Translations under genes and position numbers: made by a program
NCBI GenBank assembly: GCA_013178005.1
Contig: JABLXL010000021.1
Span: 1 to 55,301, forward strand
DNA length: 55,301 nt
Origin: Actinomycetota bacterium
GTDB lineage: Bacteria; Actinomycetota; Geothermincolia; Geothermincolales; RBG-13-55-18
Direction: 5' to 3'
Notes under the pieces: generated by a model
Database searches by the model: none
Seen by the model: the letters and a program-made list of their open reading frames with translations, nothing else
What the model was told of the DNA's origin: nothing
Shown: positions 10,603 through 19,817 of the stretch, piece by piece
How the letters are laid out: each line of letters begins with the position of its first letter
Numbering within the stretch: the first letter of the stretch is position 1

Positions 10603-11004
10603 TTATTTCCCTTCCTCGGCACAGAGGTCGAGGAAGCGTTGCAGCATTTCCATCCTCTGGCGTATGGCCTCCACCCAGGAGGCAAGGCGTCTGCGCCCCG
10701 CCGCCGTGATGCGATAGACCCTCCTGCGCGGCCCTCCGCCTTTCTCGTCCCAACGCGACGTCACCAGTCCCCGTCCCTCCATCTCGCGCAGCTTGCGGTA
10801 AACCGCGCCGGTGTCCGGGACCGGCCCGGGCAGGGGGACCTCCCCCATGCGGGATATCAGGTCGTAACCGTGAGCGGGCCCGCGGGAGAGCAGGAAGAGG
10901 ATGCGCGGCTCGATAAAGCGCTTGCCGGGACCCTCGCGCACGTAAGTTTCGACGTCGGAGGAGAGGGTATCCTCAACCTCGTCACCGTTCGTTCCCGCTC
11001 CCAT
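10603..11004 (-). CDS. PadR family transcriptional regulator
   Basis: The 133-residue protein contains the PadR winged helix: IEPRILFLLSRGPAHGYDLISRM (helices 1-2), then TGAVYRKLREMEGRGLVTSRWDE (recognition helix and wing), RRRVYRITAAGRRRL, and a short C-terminal helix for dimerisation. PadR proteins usually repress a neighbouring gene and themselves and respond to small toxic molecules. I chose the ATG at 11004 because GGGAGGTG precedes it; longer in-frame extensions run through the palindromic promoter. The gene is divergent from the cupin gene at 11130, and a perfect palindrome lies between them, so it probably controls both. The effector is unknown. Confidence 0.88.
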   Translation of the reverse strand: MGAGTNGDEVEDTLSSDVETYVREGPGKRFIEPRILFLLSRGPAHGYDLISRMGEVPLPGPVPDTGAVYRKLREMEGRGLVTSRWDEKGGGPRRRVYRITAAGRRRLASWVEAIRQRMEMLQRFLDLCAEEGK

Positions 11005-11023: not shown

Positions 11024-11066
11024 TATATGTCTTTGACATATACATTACGATTACATATATTATAAC
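11024..11066 (+). promoter_or_regulatory. Cupin-gene promoter overlapping a PadR-type palindromic operator
   Basis: TATATGTC (11024-11031), a 3-nt centre, and GACATATA (11035-11042) form a perfect palindrome with the ATGT...ACAT character of PadR sites. On the plus strand TTGACA (11033-11038), a 17-nt spacer and TATATT (11056-11061) make a strong promoter whose -35 lies inside the palindrome, so binding there should block the polymerase. Leftward, TATAAT at 11059-11064 on the minus strand could serve padR. The region is AT-rich against a GC-rich background. Confidence 0.7.
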
Positions 11067-11129: not shown

Positions 11130-11468
11130 ATGAAGATCATCGAGGCGAAAAAGGCGGAGGCGACCCCCAACCCCCACGGCGTGCACGCCAGCCGCATCTA
11201 CGACAGCGAGCACGCCCAGGCGGTGCACATCCTGCTCAAGCCGGGGGAGAGCCTGAAAAAGCACATCACCCCCGTGGACGTCTTCTTCTACGTGCTGGAG
11301 GGAGAGGGCGTGGTGGAGATCGGGGACGAGCGGGCCACTGTGGGGCCGGACACCCTGGTGGAGAGCCCGGCAAGGATACCCCACCGCTGGAGCAACGAGG
11401 GAACTTCTGATTTTCGCGTGCTGGTGGTCAAGGTCCCGCGGCCGACCGAGGAGACCAGGCTGTTGTAA
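11130..11468 (+). CDS. Small cupin-domain protein
   Basis: The 112-residue protein is a single conserved beta-barrel of the cupin_2 type. Motif 1 is reduced (HILLKPGESLKKHITPVDVFFYVLEGEGVVEIGDE) and motif 2 is PARIPHRWSNEG. Putative metal ligands are His residues near 46 and 86, with an acidic residue between. Cupins of this size bind metals and small ligands or act as isomerases or sensors; no substrate can be assigned. ATG 11130 is preceded by GGTGAGG; an upstream TTG at 11109 would add seven residues. It is divergent from padR and is the likely target of that regulator. A small GTGCC/GGCAC hairpin follows the stop at about 11474-11487. Confidence 0.8.
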   Translation: MKIIEAKKAEATPNPHGVHASRIYDSEHAQAVHILLKPGESLKKHITPVDVFFYVLEGEGVVEIGDERATVGPDTLVESPARIPHRWSNEGTSDFRVLVVKVPRPTEETRLL

Positions 11469-11753: not shown

Positions 11754-13658
11754 ATGGAAGGAGACAGGATCTCGTACCACGAGTCGGTGCGCAGAGCCTA
11801 CGAGCGCATCAAGCAAGACGGCATGACCAACATCTGGGACCGTTACGAGGCCCAGGGGTTGGGGGAAAGCCCGGACAAGCGCTGCCCCTTCTGCCAGGCG
11901 GGAGCCAGGTGCGACCTCTGCTCCAACGGACCCTGCCGCGCAGACGCCGCCAAGGACAAGCGGGGGGTGTGCGGCATCACCGCCGACGGCATGGCCATGC
12001 GCATGATGGCCCTGCGCAACGTCATGGGCACCTCCACCTACCACTACCACACCGAGCAGACCGTCAGGACCCTGCGCGCCACGGCGGAGGGAAGGACGCC
12101 CTTCGAGATCAGGGAGCCCGGAAAGCTGCGGGACTTCGCCGCCCGCCTGGGGGTGGACGCGTCCGGCTCCGACGCCGAGGTCGCCCTGCGCCTCTGCGAC
12201 TTCGCCGAGGCCGATTTCAACCGCAAGGCGGACCAACCCAGCCTAATCGTGGAGGCCCTGGCCACCCCGGAGCGCAAGGAGACATGGAAGAAACTGGGTA
12301 TCTTTCCCGGGGGCGTTTACGGGGAGATGCTGCGCGTGACCTCGTCCTGCCTCACCAACGTGGACGGCTACTACCAGAGCCTGGCCTTGAAAGCCATGCG
12401 CATGGGCATCGCCATGGCCTACCAGAGCCAGATCGTCAACGAGTACTGCCAGGACATCATCTTCGGCGTCCCGCGCCCCCACCCCATGCGCGTGGACCTG
12501 GGCGTCCTCGACCCCGACTACGTCAACGCGCTCCCCAACGGCCACGAGCCCTTCCTGGGCTTCGCCATGGTGCAACTGGCGCGCAGGTCGGAGTGGCAGG
12601 AGAAGGCCAGGGCCGCCGGCGCCAAGGGCCTGCGGGTGATCGCCAACATCGAGACCGGCCAGGAGATGATCCAGCGCTGGGAGATGGACGACGTCTTCTA
12701 CGGCTTCACGGGCAACTGGATCATGCAGGAAGCGGTGCTCGCCTCGGGCTGCGTGGACCTCTTCGCCTGCGACATGAACTGCTCCATGCCCATCGACCCC
12801 GCCTACGCCGAGCGCTACAGGTTCAAGCTCATCCCCGTGAGCGACCTGGTGGCCTTCGAGGGGGTAACGGACCGCCTCGACTACGTGCCCGAGGAGGCGG
12901 AGGCGCAGGCGGCGCGCCTGCTGGAGATGGCCATCGCCAACTTCAAGGAGCGCCGCGCCGCCGTGGAGCCCCTGGCCGGCCTGCCCCAGGGAGATGCCGT
13001 GGTGGGGTTCTCCACCGAGAGCATCCTGGAGGCCCTGGGCGGGAGCCTGGATCCCCTCCTCGACGCGGTGAAGGCGGGCGCCATCAGGGGCATCGCGGGC
13101 CTGGTGTCCTGCACCACCCTGCGTGACAGCGGCCAGGACGTGCACAGCGTGGCCGTGGCAAAGGAGCTCATCGCGCGGGACATACTCATCCTCTCCATGG
13201 GGTGCGGCAACGGGGCCATGCAGGTAGCCGGCCTGTGCAGGCCGGAGGCGGCGGAGCTGGCCGGCGCCGGGCTGCGGGGCGTGTGCGAGAAGCTGGGCGT
13301 GCCTCCGGTGCTCTCCTACGGCACCTGCACCGACACCGGGCGCATCGCCGACCTGCTGGCCGCGGTCTCGGGGGCCCTGGGAGGCGTTCCCATCCCCGAC
13401 CTGCCGGTGGTGGCCGCCGCCCCCGAGTACATGGAGCAGAAGGCGACCATGGACGCCGTCTTCGCCCTGGCCCTCGGCCTCTACACCTACGTCAACCCCG
13501 TGCCCACGGTCACCGGGGGGCCCAACCTGGTCAAGCTGCTCACCGAGGACTGCGCCGAGGTTACCGGCGGGGTGATGCGCCTGGAGACGGACGCGGCGCA
13601 GGCGGCCGAGGGCATGCTCGCCCACATCGAATCCAAGCGCGAAAAACTCGGGCTCTGA
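11754..13658 (+). CDS. CooS-like CO dehydrogenase scaffold protein lacking a canonical C-cluster cysteine
   Basis: The 634-residue protein has the Ni,Fe-CO dehydrogenase (CooS/AcsA) fold. Cys53, Cys56, Cys61 and Cys73 (CDLCSNGPC, then GVCG) match the B-cluster. Cys44-x2-Cys47 (CPFC) matches a short D-cluster motif of the Desulfovibrio vulgaris type. For the C-cluster I can align His264 (NGHEPF), Cys343 (MNCSMP), Cys453 (LVSCTT), Cys484 (SMGCGN), Cys525 (YGTCTD) and Lys563 (EQKA). The CCTG segment that supplies another C-cluster Cys in true CODHs reads NIETG here (298-302), and there is no Cys between 264 and 333. This resembles deviant proteins such as CooS-V of Carboxydothermus, which carries a hybrid Fe-S-O cluster and does not turn over CO. 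ATG 11754 has AGGAGG upstream. No cooF or cooC is adjacent. Confidence 0.85.
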   Translation: MEGDRISYHESVRRAYERIKQDGMTNIWDRYEAQGLGESPDKRCPFCQAGARCDLCSNGPCRADAAKDKRGVCGITADGMAMRMMALRNVMGTSTYHYHTEQTVRTLRATAEGRTPFEIREPGKLRDFAARLGVDASGSDAEVALRLCDFAEADFNRKADQPSLIVEALATPERKETWKKLGIFPGGVYGEMLRVTSSCLTNVDGYYQSLALKAMRMGIAMAYQSQIVNEYCQDIIFGVPRPHPMRVDLGVLDPDYVNALPNGHEPFLGFAMVQLARRSEWQEKARAAGAKGLRVIANIETGQEMIQRWEMDDVFYGFTGNWIMQEAVLASGCVDLFACDMNCSMPIDPAYAERYRFKLIPVSDLVAFEGVTDRLDYVPEEAEAQAARLLEMAIANFKERRAAVEPLAGLPQGDAVVGFSTESILEALGGSLDPLLDAVKAGAIRGIAGLVSCTTLRDSGQDVHSVAVAKELIARDILILSMGCGNGAMQVAGLCRPEAAELAGAGLRGVCEKLGVPPVLSYGTCTDTGRIADLLAAVSGALGGVPIPDLPVVAAAPEYMEQKATMDAVFALALGLYTYVNPVPTVTGGPNLVKLLTEDCAEVTGGVMRLETDAAQAAEGMLAHIESKREKLGL

Positions 13659-13705: not shown

Positions 13706-14920
13706 TCAGGAGAGCAGCATGCCGAGGGGGATCGCCCACATCCTGTCCCCGAGCTTCGCCGCCTCCTCGCCGTTGTGAGCGATAACGGCCGCTCTGCAAC
13801 CGGGAGTTAGCGAGAGGAACTCGGACAGCCCAGCCAGATCCCTCCTGGACCAGCCTTCGCCCGCTTTCACCTCGATGGCCAGAATATCCTTGCCCAACTC
13901 AACTACGAAGTCGACTTCACGCCCCTGCTGCGTCTGCCAGTAATAGACGCGGCCGGGAGGGATCTCGCGCTCGATGATGGCGATTATATTCTGGAGCACA
14001 TAGGTCTCATAAAGCGCGCCCTTCATGGGATTGTCGGAGAGGTCGCGGCAATCCGCGAGGTGGCAAGCCATCCCGGAATCGGAGATAAAGAGCTTGGGGG
14101 ATTTCTTGACCCGGCTGGCCTTGTTCCTGAGAAAGGGCTGGATCCTGCGGATGACGTACGTCGCTTCCATCCATCCCAGATACCTCGCCGCGGTTTTCGC
14201 CTCCAGGTGCGCGTCCCGCCCCAGGCCGCTGATGTTTAGGAGCTGCGCGGTACGCAACGCCGCCAGTTTCATCAGGTCCCTGAAGCCCAGTATGTTTTCG
14301 ACGCTGGCAATATCGCGCAGGTCCCTTTCAAGGTAGGTCTGCTCGTAACCGGTGAACCATAAGGCGGGGTCGCCGGCCTCGCCGAGTGCCACCGGCGGGA
14401 GGCCGCCCGCCAACACCTCCGCGTCCGTTACAACTTTTACCTCTTTCCTCCTGGGTGTTCCGGGTTCCCTCAGGAAGGAGACGATGAAGGGCGTGCTCCC
14501 GGTTGCGCCCGCTATCTCTCTCCTGCTCATGGGAGGAAGCTGGAGATATATCGCCCTCCCGGCCAGGCTTTCCGTGACCCCCCGCAGCAGGGCTGTGTTC
14601 GCCGAGCCGGAAAGAAGGAACATCCCCGGCCTGCGCCCTCTGTCCACAACCCTTTTCACCGCCAGGAAGATCTCGCGGACTCGCTGCGCCTCGTCTATGA
14701 TCATGCCCTCCGCCGTGTCCAGAAAAGCGGCCGGGTTTTCCCGGGCCGCCTTCATGTTCGCGTAGTCGTCGAGGGTGAAGTATGGGCGGGAACGGAACGC
14801 TTCTTCGTTCACGAGCATGGTACTCTTCCCCACCTGGCGCATCCCGGTGAGGACCACCACCGGCATGACCTCCAGCGCCCTCTCCAGCGTCCCGGCCAGC
14901 TCCCTGTGGACATATTCCAT
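13706..14920 (-). CDS. AAA+ ATPase with DUF4143 domain
   Basis: The 404-residue protein has an AAA_14 type N-terminal ATPase: Walker A GMRQVGKST at 26-34, Walker B GMIIDEAQRV near 74-83, sensor segment FLLSGSANTALL. This is followed by the DUF4143 nuclease-like region (LFISDSGMACHL, then GALYETYVLQNI, YYWQTQQGREVDFVVE and ILAIEVKAGEGWS). The D-F-V and E-V-K residues resemble a restriction-endonuclease-type active site. Such proteins are widespread and patchily distributed in bacteria and archaea; function is not established. ATG 14920 follows GGAGGTCATAT. The gene is isolated, converges with the CooS-like gene, and has striking palindromes immediately upstream (14934-14959). Confidence 0.87.
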   Translation of the reverse strand: MEYVHRELAGTLERALEVMPVVVLTGMRQVGKSTMLVNEEAFRSRPYFTLDDYANMKAARENPAAFLDTAEGMIIDEAQRVREIFLAVKRVVDRGRRPGMFLLSGSANTALLRGVTESLAGRAIYLQLPPMSRREIAGATGSTPFIVSFLREPGTPRRKEVKVVTDAEVLAGGLPPVALGEAGDPALWFTGYEQTYLERDLRDIASVENILGFRDLMKLAALRTAQLLNISGLGRDAHLEAKTAARYLGWMEATYVIRRIQPFLRNKASRVKKSPKLFISDSGMACHLADCRDLSDNPMKGALYETYVLQNIIAIIEREIPPGRVYYWQTQQGREVDFVVELGKDILAIEVKAGEGWSRRDLAGLSEFLSLTPGCRAAVIAHNGEEAAKLGDRMWAIPLGMLLS

Positions 14921-15149: not shown

Positions 15150-16208
15150 TTGAGCGAAGAAACCTACGCCAGGCTAAGGGAGCTGTTGCACCGCATGCCG
15201 GGAGGGTTTCCCGCCACCGAGAGCGGCGTGGAGATGAGGATCCTCTCGAAGCTCTTCTCCCTCGAGGACGCGGAGACGGCGGTATGTTTGTCGCGGGATC
15301 CTCTTTCCCCCTCCGAGGTGGCGCGCCGCCTCGGCACGGACGAGCAGGAGGCAGCGGAGCGGCTGGCCTCCATGGCTTCGCGAGGCCTCATCTACCGTGA
15401 TGGGGAAGGCGATGACGCCCGCTACCGCCTGGAGCAGTTCATCGTGGGCATCTACGAATACAACCTGGGCTCCATGGACCGCGAGCTGGCGGAGATGGTC
15501 GAGGAGTACATCCCTCACATCGGCCTGGCCATGGCGGGGGCGAAGACCCTGCAGACACGCTTCGTGCCCGTGGGCTCGGCGGTGGAGGGAAACCACGCCG
15601 TCGCCACCCATGACCGCATCAGGGAACTTGTGCGCGAGCATGAATTCCTGGGCGTCAAGGAATGCATCTGCCGCAAGCAGCAGAGGCTGCTGGGCAAGGG
15701 CTGTGAAAACCCGCTGGAGATCTGCCTCATGTTCGGGGACTTCGCGCGCTACCACCTGGAGAACGGCTGGCCGGGCCGCAGGATCGACGTGGAGGAGGCG
15801 CTCCGTCTGCTCGACCGCTCGGAGGAGCTGGGGCTGGTGCTCCTGGCCGAGAACGCCCGCCAGATCAGGTTCGTGTGCTCCTGCTGCGCCTGCTGCTGCT
15901 CGGGGCTGAGGATCATGAGGGCCCTCCCCAACCCGGGGGAGATCCTGCACTCCAACTACCGCTCCGTGCTGGACGCCGGGCGATGCGACGGTTGTGGGAT
16001 ATGTCTCGAGCGCTGCCCCATGTATGCCATCTCACAAGCCAATGGGGTCGCGGCTATCGACCCCAGGAGGTGCATCGGTTGCGGAGTATGCATCCCCACC
16101 TGCCCCCAGGAGGCCATATCGCTGGAGGAGAGGGAGGACGCCGTGGTCCCGCCCCGGGATAAGAGGGAGACCATGCGGCGCATCCTGGAGGAAAGAGGGC
16201 TGGAATAA
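15150..16208 (+). CDS. Winged-helix / multi-[4Fe-4S] ferredoxin-like fusion protein
   Basis: The 352-residue protein begins with a winged-helix-like part (about residues 1-100: LSPSEVARRLGTDEQEAAERLASMASRGLI). A middle domain has Cys172, Cys174, Cys185 and Cys192, then the dense cluster CSCCACCC at 243-250. At the C-terminus is a bacterial-type 2[4Fe-4S] ferredoxin: C279/C282/C285/C289 and C308/C311/C314/C318. Such fusions occur in strict anaerobes and are thought to couple redox state to electron transfer, but the biochemistry is not established. TTG at 15150 follows AAAGGAGGGGGAT, the strongest ribosome binding site available. The final codons are duplicated downstream (16246-16286). It stands between the AAA gene and tRNA-Arg. 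Confidence 0.75.
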   Translation: MSEETYARLRELLHRMPGGFPATESGVEMRILSKLFSLEDAETAVCLSRDPLSPSEVARRLGTDEQEAAERLASMASRGLIYRDGEGDDARYRLEQFIVGIYEYNLGSMDRELAEMVEEYIPHIGLAMAGAKTLQTRFVPVGSAVEGNHAVATHDRIRELVREHEFLGVKECICRKQQRLLGKGCENPLEICLMFGDFARYHLENGWPGRRIDVEEALRLLDRSEELGLVLLAENARQIRFVCSCCACCCSGLRIMRALPNPGEILHSNYRSVLDAGRCDGCGICLERCPMYAISQANGVAAIDPRRCIGCGVCIPTCPQEAISLEEREDAVVPPRDKRETMRRILEERGLE

Positions 16209-16286: not shown

Positions 16287-16310
16287 GACAACCCGTTGAA
16301 AGGAAAATGG

Positions 16311-16383
16311 AGCCCCTGGCCGGAATCGAACCGGCGACACATGGATTAGGAATCCATTGCTCTGTCCGCTGAGCTACAGGGGC
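16311..16383 (-). tRNA. tRNA-Arg (anticodon CCT)
   Basis: Read on the minus strand this 73-nt gene folds into a full cloverleaf. The acceptor GCCCCTG pairs with CAGGGGC, the D arm is GCTC/GAGC, and the anticodon arm ATGGA/TCCAT encloses the loop TTCCTAA (anticodon CCT). The variable loop is short, the T arm is GCCGG/CCGGC with loop TTCGATT, and the discriminator base is T. CCA is not encoded. CCT decodes AGG. Confidence 0.95.
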
Positions 16384-16939: not shown

Positions 16940-17620
16940 ATGCATATTCCGGACGGCTTCCTCAACACCGGGGTGAGCGTGGTCACGGGCGTGGCAGCCG
17001 CGGGCGCGATAGGCTATGGCCTTTACAAGGCCCGCGAGGAGCTCGACGAGAGGTCCGTGCCCATGCTGGCCCTCTGCGCCGCCTTCATCTTCGCGGCCCA
17101 GATGCTTAACTTTCCAATAGCAGGAGGCACCAGCGGGCATTTCCTGGGAGGCGCCCTGGCGGCGGTGCTGTTGGGGCCGTGGTTAGGGGGGTTGGTGATA
17201 GCCCTGGTGCTGCTGGTGCAGTGCCTGGGCTTCGCGGACGGCGGCCTTACCGCCTTGGGGGCGAATGTGTTTAACATGGCCTTGATAGGCACCATCCTTA
17301 TTTATTATGTCTTCCACGGCATCAAGTTGCTGCTGCCGAAGAGCAGGAGCGCTTTCCTGGCCGCCACCGGGGTCACGGCATGGCTGTCGGTGTTCCTGGC
17401 CTCGGGCGCTTGCGCCGTGGAGCTGGCCATCTCGGGCACCTCGCCCTTGAGCGTAGCCCTGCCGGCCATGCTCGGCATCCACGCCCTCATCGGCATCGTG
17501 GAGGGCGCGATAACCGTGCTCGTGGTCGGGGTGGTGCTGGCGGTACGGCCGGACCTGGTCAGGACCTACGACTACCGGCCCGTCGCGGCCGGCCTCGGTG
17601 AAGCGGAGGTGAGCGGGTGA
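16940..17620 (+). CDS. cbiM: Cobalt/nickel ECF transporter substrate-binding component CbiM
   Basis: The 226-residue membrane protein starts with MHIPDGF, the N-terminal metal-binding motif of CbiM/NikM in which the free amino group and His2 ligate Co or Ni. Hydrophobic segments follow throughout (for example FIFAAQMLNFPIAGGTSGHFLGG, the family signature near residues 52-74, in which His71 is a further ligand). It is the S component of an energy-coupling-factor importer, working with the PDGLE protein, CbiQ and CbiO downstream. GGGAGG lies 12 nt before ATG 16940; the fixed N-terminal motif decides the start. Co versus Ni cannot be told from sequence. The nearby B12-type radical SAM and MtaA-like genes favour cobalt. 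Its leader is unusual (16691-16905). Confidence 0.95.
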   Translation: MHIPDGFLNTGVSVVTGVAAAGAIGYGLYKAREELDERSVPMLALCAAFIFAAQMLNFPIAGGTSGHFLGGALAAVLLGPWLGGLVIALVLLVQCLGFADGGLTALGANVFNMALIGTILIYYVFHGIKLLLPKSRSAFLAATGVTAWLSVFLASGACAVELAISGTSPLSVALPAMLGIHALIGIVEGAITVLVVGVVLAVRPDLVRTYDYRPVAAGLGEAEVSG

Positions 17621-18012
17621 TGGAAACTCGCAGGAAGAGCATCATGGTTTTCACCCTGGCGGGGCTAGCCCTCGCGGTGGCTCTGGCGCTCATCATCTCG
17701 CCCTGGGCCTCCTCCTCGCCCGATGGCCTGGAGAAAGTAGCGGAGGACAAGGGCTTCCTGGAAAAGGCGGAGGAAACGGAGCCGGCGTGGGAGAGCGCTC
17801 CCATCCCCGATTACGCCATGCCGGGCCTTACCAAGGAGGCGGTCGACGAGGAGACCGGGGAGGTGGTGGAGGAGCCCACCCGCCTCGCCACGGCGCTCGC
17901 CGGGCTGGTGGGCACGGTGGGCATCTTCCTCATCGCCTGGGGGCTCGCCCTGGTGCTGAAGAGGCGGAGGCCCGCGGAGGCGCCGGTGGAGAGCGGTCCC
18001 GCTATGGAATAA
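17620..18012 (+). CDS. PDGLE-domain (CbiN-like) ECF transporter accessory protein
   Basis: The 130-residue protein has two transmembrane segments (about residues 8-28 and 90-112) flanking an extracytoplasmic loop that contains SSSPDGLEKVAEDKGF, the PDGLE motif. In cobalt/nickel ECF importers this protein replaces or complements CbiN and helps CbiM load metal. The ATG at 17620 overlaps the cbiM stop (TGATG), and GGAGGTGAG precedes it, so the two are coupled. A GTG one codon earlier is also possible. The middle part is acidic. It is followed by cbiQ after 118 nt. Confidence 0.88.
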   Translation: METRRKSIMVFTLAGLALAVALALIISPWASSSPDGLEKVAEDKGFLEKAEETEPAWESAPIPDYAMPGLTKEAVDEETGEVVEEPTRLATALAGLVGTVGIFLIAWGLALVLKRRRPAEAPVESGPAME

Positions 18013-18130
18013 TATTCCAGTGATATATCGAGCGGTCGCCGGGCCCCGCCTGGTGGGCGATAAATAGCGATAGCGGCATCAAGAAGGGCGGCGCCCGCAA
18101 GAGAGCGGCCGCCGCCCCGGGGAACGATGG

Positions 18131-18886
18131 ATGAAGCACGTCTTTCTTGACGAGTACAGCGACCTGCGCAGCCCCGTCCACCAGCTTGACCCTCGCGCCA
18201 AGCTGGTGGGCTTCGCCGCGCTCATCGTCATCTGCGTGTCCACCCCGCCCGACCGCTACGCCGCCTTCGCCGCCTACCTCGGCCTGGAGCTGGCCCTGGT
18301 CCTGGTCTCGCGCCTGCCGTGGAGACACGTGCTCAAGCGCATGCTCGTGGTGCTCCCCTTCATCCTGGTGGTGGCGGCCTTCCTGCCCTTTTTCGGCGAG
18401 GGAGGGGGCAGCTACAACCTGGGGCCGTTGACGCTGTCCGCCCACGGGCTGCTGGTGCTGTGGAACGTGGCCGCCAAGTCCACGATCAGCGTGCTGGCGG
18501 TGATCCTGCTCTCCTCCACCACGCCTTTCCCGGAGCTTCTGAAGGGGATGGAGAAGCTCAAGGTCCCCGTTCTCCTCACCACCATCCTCAGCTTCATGTA
18601 CCGCTACGTCTTCGTGCTCATGGACGAGCTGCAGCGCATGCGGCGCGCCCGCGATTCGCGGGGGTGGAGCGGCAAGTGGTTCTGGCAGTCCAAGGTGATC
18701 GGGCACATGATCGCGGCCCTCTTCCTGCGCTCCTACGAGCGGGGCGAGAGGGTCTACGCGGCCATGCTGGCGAGGGGATACGGCGGGGGCACGCACACCA
18801 TATACCTTTATGAATTCGGCGCCATGGAGGTGGGATTCATGGTGATGCTGGTCCTGTTCCCCCTGGCGGCGAGGTTGATATCATAG
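18131..18886 (+). CDS. cbiQ: ECF transporter transmembrane component CbiQ
   Basis: The 251-residue protein is the T component that couples ATP hydrolysis by CbiO to metal import by CbiM. It opens with the characteristic HQLDPRAKLVGF segment (about residues 17-28), has about five to six hydrophobic segments, and carries two coupling-helix motifs of the ARG type: RRARDSRG near residues 173-180 and AMLARGYGG near 211-219. ATG 18131 is preceded by GGGGAACG, a modest ribosome binding site. The order cbiM, PDGLE, cbiQ, cbiO is standard for this importer class. Confidence 0.94.
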   Translation: MKHVFLDEYSDLRSPVHQLDPRAKLVGFAALIVICVSTPPDRYAAFAAYLGLELALVLVSRLPWRHVLKRMLVVLPFILVVAAFLPFFGEGGGSYNLGPLTLSAHGLLVLWNVAAKSTISVLAVILLSSTTPFPELLKGMEKLKVPVLLTTILSFMYRYVFVLMDELQRMRRARDSRGWSGKWFWQSKVIGHMIAALFLRSYERGERVYAAMLARGYGGGTHTIYLYEFGAMEVGFMVMLVLFPLAARLIS

Positions 18887-19037
18887 GGGACATCGCGAAG
18901 GCGGGCGCCGGCGCGCGATCTTTTCCAGCCCGCGCGGAGCGGGATGGAGGAGATTTCGCCATGGAGGAGCCGGCGCGCGCGGCGCGATCCAGGAAAGCGG
19001 GCAAAGCCCGGATATAGAGAGAGGAGGATAGGGCGGG

Positions 19038-19817
19038 ATGCACCACAGGCCGGCGGTGGAGATAAAGAACCTCCGCTATGCCTATCCAGACGGGACGGTT
19101 GCCCTGCGGGGGGTGGACCTGCTCATCGAGGAGGGCGAGTCTGTGGGCATCGTCGGCCCCAATGGGGCGGGGAAATCGACCCTGCTCCTGCACCTCAACG
19201 GCATCCTCGCCGGGGAAGGGGAGGTGCGTATATTCGGCCTCCCGGTGGAGAAGAAGAACCTGCGGGAGATAAGGCGCAGGGTGGGGCTGGTCTTCCAGGA
19301 TCCCGACGACCAGCTCTTCTCCCCCACCGTTTTCGACGATGTGGCCTTCGGGCCTATCAACATGGGGCTTTCCAGGGAAGAGGTGGTGGTGGCGGTGTCC
19401 CGGGCCCTCGAGGAGGTTGGGATCGGGGGCATGGAGAAACGTTCCGCCTACCACCTGAGCTACGGGCAGAAAAAGCGCGCCGCCATCGCCACCGTGCTCT
19501 CCATGAACCCCGACCTGCTGGTGCTGGACGAGCCCTCCAGCAACCTGGACCCCCGGGCGCGCAACGAGTTTTCCGAGTTGTTGCAGTCCATGCGCATCAC
19601 CAAGATACTGGTGACCCACGACCTTCCCTTCGTCTTCGAGAACTGCGAGCGCGTGCTGGTCATGAGCGGCGGCAGGATCGTGGCCGACGGGGACTCCTTC
19701 GAGGTCCTTTCCAACGAGACGCTGCTCGCGGAGCACGGCCTGGAGCTGCCCTACGGCTTCTACCCCTCTCCGCGCGGAAAGGCCAGCGAGGCGCGGAACC
19801 GCGAGATGGAAAGTTGA
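19038..19817 (+). CDS. cbiO: Cobalt/nickel ECF transporter ATPase CbiO
   Basis: This 259-residue ABC ATPase powers the CbiMQ importer. Walker A is GPNGAGKST (about 41-49) and the Q-loop FQDPDDQLFSPTV is typical of ECF ATPases. The signature motif reads LSYGQKKR instead of LSGGQ. Walker B is LLVLDEPSSNLDP (about 159-171) and the switch His is in VTHDLPF. GAGAGGAGG lies upstream of ATG 19038. The gap of about 150 nt after cbiQ is long for this operon but no terminator is obvious. The last codons and stop are part of a 75-nt tandem repeat that continues to 20052. Confidence 0.94.
   Translation: MHHRPAVEIKNLRYAYPDGTVALRGVDLLIEEGESVGIVGPNGAGKSTLLLHLNGILAGEGEVRIFGLPVEKKNLREIRRRVGLVFQDPDDQLFSPTVFDDVAFGPINMGLSREEVVVAVSRALEEVGIGGMEKRSAYHLSYGQKKRAAIATVLSMNPDLLVLDEPSSNLDPRARNEFSELLQSMRITKILVTHDLPFVFENCERVLVMSGGRIVADGDSFEVLSNETLLAEHGLELPYGFYPSPRGKASEARNREMES

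Follow-up and report, generated by a model that had tools for sequence, protein, structure and literature searches.

A CooS-V-type gene of structural group D-1 in a Geothermincolia genome and its gene neighbourhood in common with HCP

The cooS locus and its metal-site residues

The window analysed here is a stretch of 55,301 nucleotides from a member of the Actinomycetota, class Geothermincolia (GenBank assembly GCA_013178005.1, contig JABLXL010000021.1, forward strand). It carries a cooS gene, with a small cupin gene and a divergent regulator gene at its 5' side:

10603-11004, minus strand: divergent PadR-family regulator gene (PF03551; the open reading frame extends to 11103, with the likely ATG at 11004)
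11025-11041, no strand assigned: palindromic operator-like site ATATGTCTTTGACATAT (conserved alignment; pattern scan)
11033-11061, plus strand: sigma-70-like promoter TTGACA-17-TATATT, overlapping the operator-like site
11130-11468, plus strand: small Cupin_2 gene directly 5' of cooS (PF07883; the open reading frame call begins at TTG 11109)
11754-13658, plus strand: cooS gene of structural group D-1 (CooS-V type), Prismane/CODH family, 634 aa (alignment, profiles, model)

The cooS reading frame is uninterrupted over its 634 codons, and an AGGAGG lies 7 nt 5' of the ATG. Its product is a full-length match to PF03063 (Prismane/CO dehydrogenase family) and scores 719 bits with the NCBIfam CODH model TIGR01702 (cut-off 478), but only 29 bits with the HCP model TIGR01703 (cut-off 360.8). 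In all 13 genomes of the same family where both genes were found, the cupin gene immediately precedes the D-1 gene in the same orientation. The operator-like site lies between the PadR and cupin genes, over the -35 box of the promoter; the pattern ATATGTNNTTGACATAT is present as one copy per genome in 9 of 15 family genomes, each time at the PadR-cupin promoter, and gave no matches in the reversed control. Its position and form suggest that it is bound by PadR. The window PadR is 50-59% identical to those beside D-1 or HCP genes in three genomes considered below (G016, G003 and G017), in which a search for a counterpart of the palindrome gave no clear equivalent.

The initial annotation described cooS as a lone gene without cooC or cooF. 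The second part stands, in that no cooC, cooF or acs genes for maturation or CO metabolism were found beside it; the first does not, and is ruled out by the cupin partner, the divergent PadR gene and the operator-like site of its own. Besides cupin and PadR, the neighbours comprise a DUF4143 ATPase and a ferredoxin-domain protein. The AAA_14/DUF4143 ATPase gene (13706-14920, minus strand) lies 3' of cooS on the opposite strand and is common to one close relative only. The product of the gene at 15150-16208 (plus strand) has an N-terminal region resembling a winged helix and, at its C-terminus, two 4Fe-4S motifs; it is possibly a redox regulator, and three Asgard loci have relatives of it near D-1. 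Elsewhere in the window are its sole RNA gene found, a tRNA-Arg (CCT) at 16308-16383 (minus strand), and a cluster at 16940-19817 (plus strand) that on sequence inspection resembles cobalt or nickel uptake systems of the CbiM/CbiN/CbiQ/CbiO type.

Residues of the putative metal sites were assigned by alignment, with CooS-V (7b7q) and CODH-IV (6elq) as references; all codons are on the plus strand:

11883-11894: Cys44-x2-Cys47, type III D-cluster pair (alignment; PMC9311411, PMC6344411)
12543-12545: His264 (CooS-V His259)
12651-12653: Glu300, at the position of the C-cluster ligand Cys295 (Glu295 in CooS-V, Cys295 in CODH-IV)
12777-12782: Asn342-Cys343 (CooS-V Asn337-Cys338)
13110-13112: Cys453 (CooS-V Cys449)
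13203-13205: Cys484 (CooS-V Cys480)
13326-13328: Cys525 (CooS-V Cys521, the persulfide site)
13434-13442: Glu561-Gln562-Lys563 (CooS-V Glu556, a ligand, and Lys558)

The pair C44/C47 aligns with C38/C41 of CooS-V, in which the D-cluster is of the [2Fe-2S] type (PMC9311411, PMC6344411), and with C53 it gives the type III pattern Cys-x2-Cys-x5-Cys. The CC dipeptide of CODH-IV (C294-C295) is replaced by I299-E300, Tyr96 occupies the acid-base His position, and Glu561, two residues before Lys563, is at the position of the second glutamate ligand of HCP and CooS-V. The protein therefore departs from the residue set of the Ni,Fe-CODHs (clades A, E and F) at both Cys295 and the acid-base His. It had been noted previously that the canonical C-cluster Cys is missing, that His264, Cys343, Cys453, Cys484, Cys525 and Lys563 are retained, and that the stretch from 264 to 333 is free of Cys. 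All of this is confirmed: the retained residues align with CooS-V H259, C338, C449, C480, C521 and K558, the alignment offers no other Cys for the Cys295 position, and the translation contains none between 264 and 333. Glu occupies this position in 102 aligned rows (CooS-V, P0001 and 100 homologous loci), and in every one of them the His, the four Cys, the Glu and the Lys are all conserved; in the 11 canonical CODHs of the same alignment the position is invariably Cys. Because the Glu and the full ligand set are common to 102 sequences, chance or sequencing error is excluded, as is an artefact or frameshift masking a Cys, and Glu300 is, from the alignment, best regarded as a ligand of the CooS-V/HCP type and not as a mere loss of Cys.

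Placement in structural group D-1

The best PDB match of the window protein is CooS-V of Carboxydothermus hydrogenoformans (670 bits, 50% identity, full length), the second-best reaching 366 bits and 34% identity. An AlphaFold2 model (pLDDT 88.8, pTM 0.92) has the CooS-V structures 7b9a/7b7q as its closest relatives (TM 0.96, rmsd 1.7), with ordinary CODHs at TM about 0.92 and rmsd 2.0-2.5. In a tree with 54 D-1 rows and only 8 canonical CODHs, representing part of the clades, the window protein and CooS-V fall together in the D-1 group with support of 100/100, apart from the canonical enzymes. The protein has the full set of hybrid-cluster ligands, together with the Tyr/Lys pair and a D-cluster of type III, and so shows, as judged by sequence, every residue by which Inoue et al. 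(2019) define structural group D-1, whose active site they equate with that of HCP (PMC6344411). Alignment, fold and tree thus agree with the earlier suggestion of a non-CODH enzyme similar to CooS-V. The type has already been described (Inoue et al., 2019; Jeoung et al., 2022), and the window protein adds a member to it.

CooS-V contains a Ni-free [4Fe-3S-nO] hybrid cluster, turns over neither CO nor CO2, and reduces hydroxylamine very slowly, with a kcat/KM of 20 M-1 s-1 (Jeoung et al., 2022, PMC9311411). By analogy, the window protein would also carry an Fe-S-O hybrid cluster, lack Ni and fail to turn over CO. The warning of the initial annotation that the name 'CO dehydrogenase' would mislead is well taken, because CooS-V neither oxidises CO nor reduces CO2, and automatic annotation under this name overstates CO metabolism in many anaerobes.

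One scan found 80 relatives with 76-93% identity to the window protein, in bacteria (Actinomycetota, Chloroflexota, Desulfobacterota and WOR-3) and in archaea (Asgard archaea, ANME-1, Methanosarcinaceae, Bathyarchaeota and Thermoplasmata). The median pairwise identity in the D-1 alignment is 77% across both domains, and the D-1 tree fits taxonomy poorly; strong constraint together with repeated inter-domain transfer would be the simplest reading of this subgroup. Outside it lie CooS-V and the protein of genome G016, a 53% relative from the same order as the window genome.

Neighbours in common with HCP and exchange of the two enzymes

Of the 80 wider loci, 22 encode a FrdX-like dicluster ferredoxin (about 260 aa) no more than 3 kb from the D-1 gene and without exception in its orientation; a cupin gene is nearby in 15 and an Rrf2-type regulator in 7, and at more than half of the 80, many of them on short contigs, neither FrdX nor cupin is nearby. 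None of the three was found within 1.5 kb of a canonical CODH in a small control of 10 loci. An NADPH-dependent FMN reductase-like flavoprotein, recognized by sequence inspection, recurs near D-1 in 14 of the 80 loci (for example L102 11862-12459, L061 and L066). Transporter, acyl-CoA dehydrogenase and P-type ATPase neighbours were set aside as shared mainly by close relatives.

The same partners accompany HCP. The frdX gene forms operons with hcp inside NO regulons (PMC1274295), and among the best 30 FrdX loci in Desulfobacterota HCP is adjacent in 14 and D-1 in none; the ferredoxin of the D-1 loci appears, from sequence and linkage, to behave as the FrdX known from hcp operons. Of 30 Methanosarcinales loci, 11 have hcp directly beside a relative of the window cupin (60-66% identical), and a Desulfobacterota genome (G144) has the order Rrf2-FrdX-HCP-cupin, its cupin being 67% identical to that of the window. 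With D-1 as the enzyme, the order is Rrf2-FrdX-D1-cupin at locus L076, FrdX-D1-cupin at L057, and cupin-D1, as in the window, in the Methanosarcinales genome G419. FrdX, cupin and Rrf2 also occur as units without HCP or D-1. A window-type cupin as the usual HCP partner in Desulfobacterota was considered and is mostly not borne out, with 3 of 198 genomes having the cupin, one of them beside hcp. Relatives of the window protein are thus found in the FrdX/cupin/Rrf2 or PadR setting of hcp, a linkage that bears on the mode of action of the protein and not on membership of the HCP family. A role in nitrogen stress had been raised in the initial annotation, and the gene neighbourhoods common to HCP lend it independent support.

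None of the 21 same-class genomes with D-1 has HCP above cut-off, while 2 of the 4 tested without D-1 have it (Fisher p = 0.02, relatedness ignored). In the wider set HCP is present in 0 of 18 genomes with FrdX- or cupin-linked D-1 and in 8 of 17 with D-1 unlinked to either (8 of 35 overall), with G419, which has a cupin-linked D-1 together with HCP, as an exception; these counts are not independent because the genomes are related, and most of them are draft MAGs. One locus shows the exchange most plainly. In genome G017 PadR faces HCP-FrdX and is backed by two permease genes of ArsP type; in G016, of the same family, PadR faces D-1-FrdX with the same two permease genes, the identities between them being 77% for FrdX, 64% for PadR, and 64% and 55% for the permeases. 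A third genome, G003, from the window's own family, has PadR facing HCP-FrdX together with the permeases and a cupin. By sequence comparison, HCP and D-1 have evidently been swapped at an orthologous locus with retention of regulator, partner and flanks. The two permease genes, short and of ArsP_1 type, adjoin the divergent PadR gene at these loci (L220 7053-8177, L246 5073-6122 and L245 4365-5450). In the window genome D-1 is accompanied by PadR and cupin, HCP is absent, and FrdX is encoded elsewhere:

Contig C89 of the window genome, locus L218, 5877-7041: Rrf2-type regulator followed directly by FrdX, unlinked to D-1

Proposed function and comparison with known systems

We propose that the window gene probably encodes a CooS-V-type hybrid-cluster enzyme that does the job of HCP in the cell, is repressed by PadR, and has FrdX as its likely donor or partner. 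The enzyme would be a homodimer of CODH fold in which an Fe-S-O hybrid cluster, held by His264, Glu300, Cys343, Cys453, Cys484, Cys525 (as the persulfide) and Glu561, replaces the Ni,Fe C-cluster. Electrons would enter through the [2Fe-2S] D-cluster and pass to the [4Fe-4S] B-cluster, with FrdX, from the unlinked Rrf2-FrdX unit, as their likely source. From the behaviour of CooS-V, a channel for a small oxidised substrate would open upon reduction of the cluster, and for this reason the enzyme would be a reductase. Its cellular task is most likely to remove nitrogen oxides, or a stressor of similar kind, by reduction at low potential, with the divergent PadR protein repressing cupin-cooS at the operator over the promoter.

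Evidence from other organisms bears on this proposal in both directions. Clostridioides difficile becomes sensitive to NO when either frdX or hcp is knocked down (PMC12915319), and neighbouring cupin and hcp genes are NO-induced in Desulfovibrio desulfuricans (PMC5701242). Against an HCP-like role, NO reduction by CooS-V was not above background and its potentials lie about 300 mV below those of HCP, and the authors propose a physiological role different from that of HCP; FrdX is not mentioned for the CooS-V assays in the text available from that paper (PMC9311411). The D-1 loci with neither FrdX nor cupin nearby, and the D-1 genomes that have HCP as well, G419 among them, likewise speak against it. 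The points on potential and on NO also favour the view that a hybrid-cluster enzyme of this kind catalyses some other low-potential reduction and that the partners shared with HCP serve the cofactor, through assembly, repair or electron supply, as does the occurrence of FrdX, cupin and Rrf2 units in the absence of either enzyme. We consider this unlikely, however: the hybrid cluster of CooS-V formed in Escherichia coli without native partners, albeit with 50-70% occupancy (PMC9311411), the C. difficile knockdowns tie both frdX and hcp to NO sensitivity, and HCP and D-1 swap beside the same PadR gene.

It is a good deal less probable that the protein, in organisms already equipped with an active CODH, catalyses slowly or not at all and acts as a redox sensor or in an auxiliary capacity. 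Auxiliary or redox-sensing roles have been proposed for clade D (eLife 2026, PMC13056359), and the window genome has another CODH followed by a gene resembling acsB (contig C12, locus L219, 8949-13072), so that CODH/ACS is probably present; but the catalytic ligands are all invariant in the 102 sequences in spite of their spread across bacteria and archaea at a median identity of 77%, and D-1 is linked to the partners of HCP and not to CODH genes. That the protein is a functional Ni,Fe-CODH whose C-cluster is modified is very improbable indeed, in spite of the TIGR01702 score and of Methanosarcina acetivorans genetics suggesting involvement of D-1 in CO oxidation (Rother, 2007, cited by Inoue et al., 2019), given that Glu replaces Cys295, that the C295E variant of CODH-II loses both Ni and CO oxidation and CooS-V lacks Ni and has no activity with CO (PMC9311411), and that Clostridium autoethanogenum shows no CO oxidation without acsA when its D-1 gene is retained (PMC4895105; D-1 assignment from PMC6344411). 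The genetic record as a whole is mixed: in C. autoethanogenum loss of the D-1 gene has little effect on growth on CO (PMC4895105), and the M. acetivorans genetics, which also speaks against an HCP-like role, hints at CO.

The hybrid-cluster reductase with the cellular job of HCP is therefore our preferred reading, and the shared neighbourhood and locus exchange supply candidates for the stress, the donor (FrdX) and the regulators (PadR and Rrf2), and suggest one function reached twice on one fold. We lean slightly towards the broader view that in vivo HCP and the CooS-V-type enzymes can stand in for one another, having arisen separately on the CODH/HCP fold and replaced each other, in both bacteria and archaea, at the same PadR- or Rrf2-linked loci with FrdX and cupin as common partners. 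If so, the CooS-V proteins would constitute a second HCP, and FrdX would be the electron donor missing from in vitro tests. A 2026 survey of CODH gene contexts finds clade D without a clear pattern (PMC13056359), and a link of D-1 to the HCP neighbourhood is not reported in the available text of that survey or of the earlier one (PMC6344411).

Among known systems, CooS-V (PDB 7B7Q, 7B9A) is the closest to the window protein, with all cluster ligands and the fold (TM 0.96) in common and Cys47 corresponding to its Cys41. The window protein falls in another D-1 subgroup than CooS-V, one of high conservation; 30 alignment positions fixed in it differ in CooS-V, and a PadR/cupin operon like that of the window gene has not been described for CooS-V. 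With group D-1 (clade D) of Inoue et al. (2019) it shares the type III D-cluster, Glu for Cys1, the Tyr, the Lys and the Glu two residues before the Lys; the ties of D-1 in that survey, as far as its available text describes them, are to COG1063, HypA and HypB (PMC6344411), whereas here they are to cupin, FrdX, PadR and Rrf2. HCP is a separate sequence family, and the window protein differs from it in its CODH-type dimer scaffold and D-cluster, but the two are alike in ligand set, in gene neighbours and, in sister lineages, in chromosomal slot.
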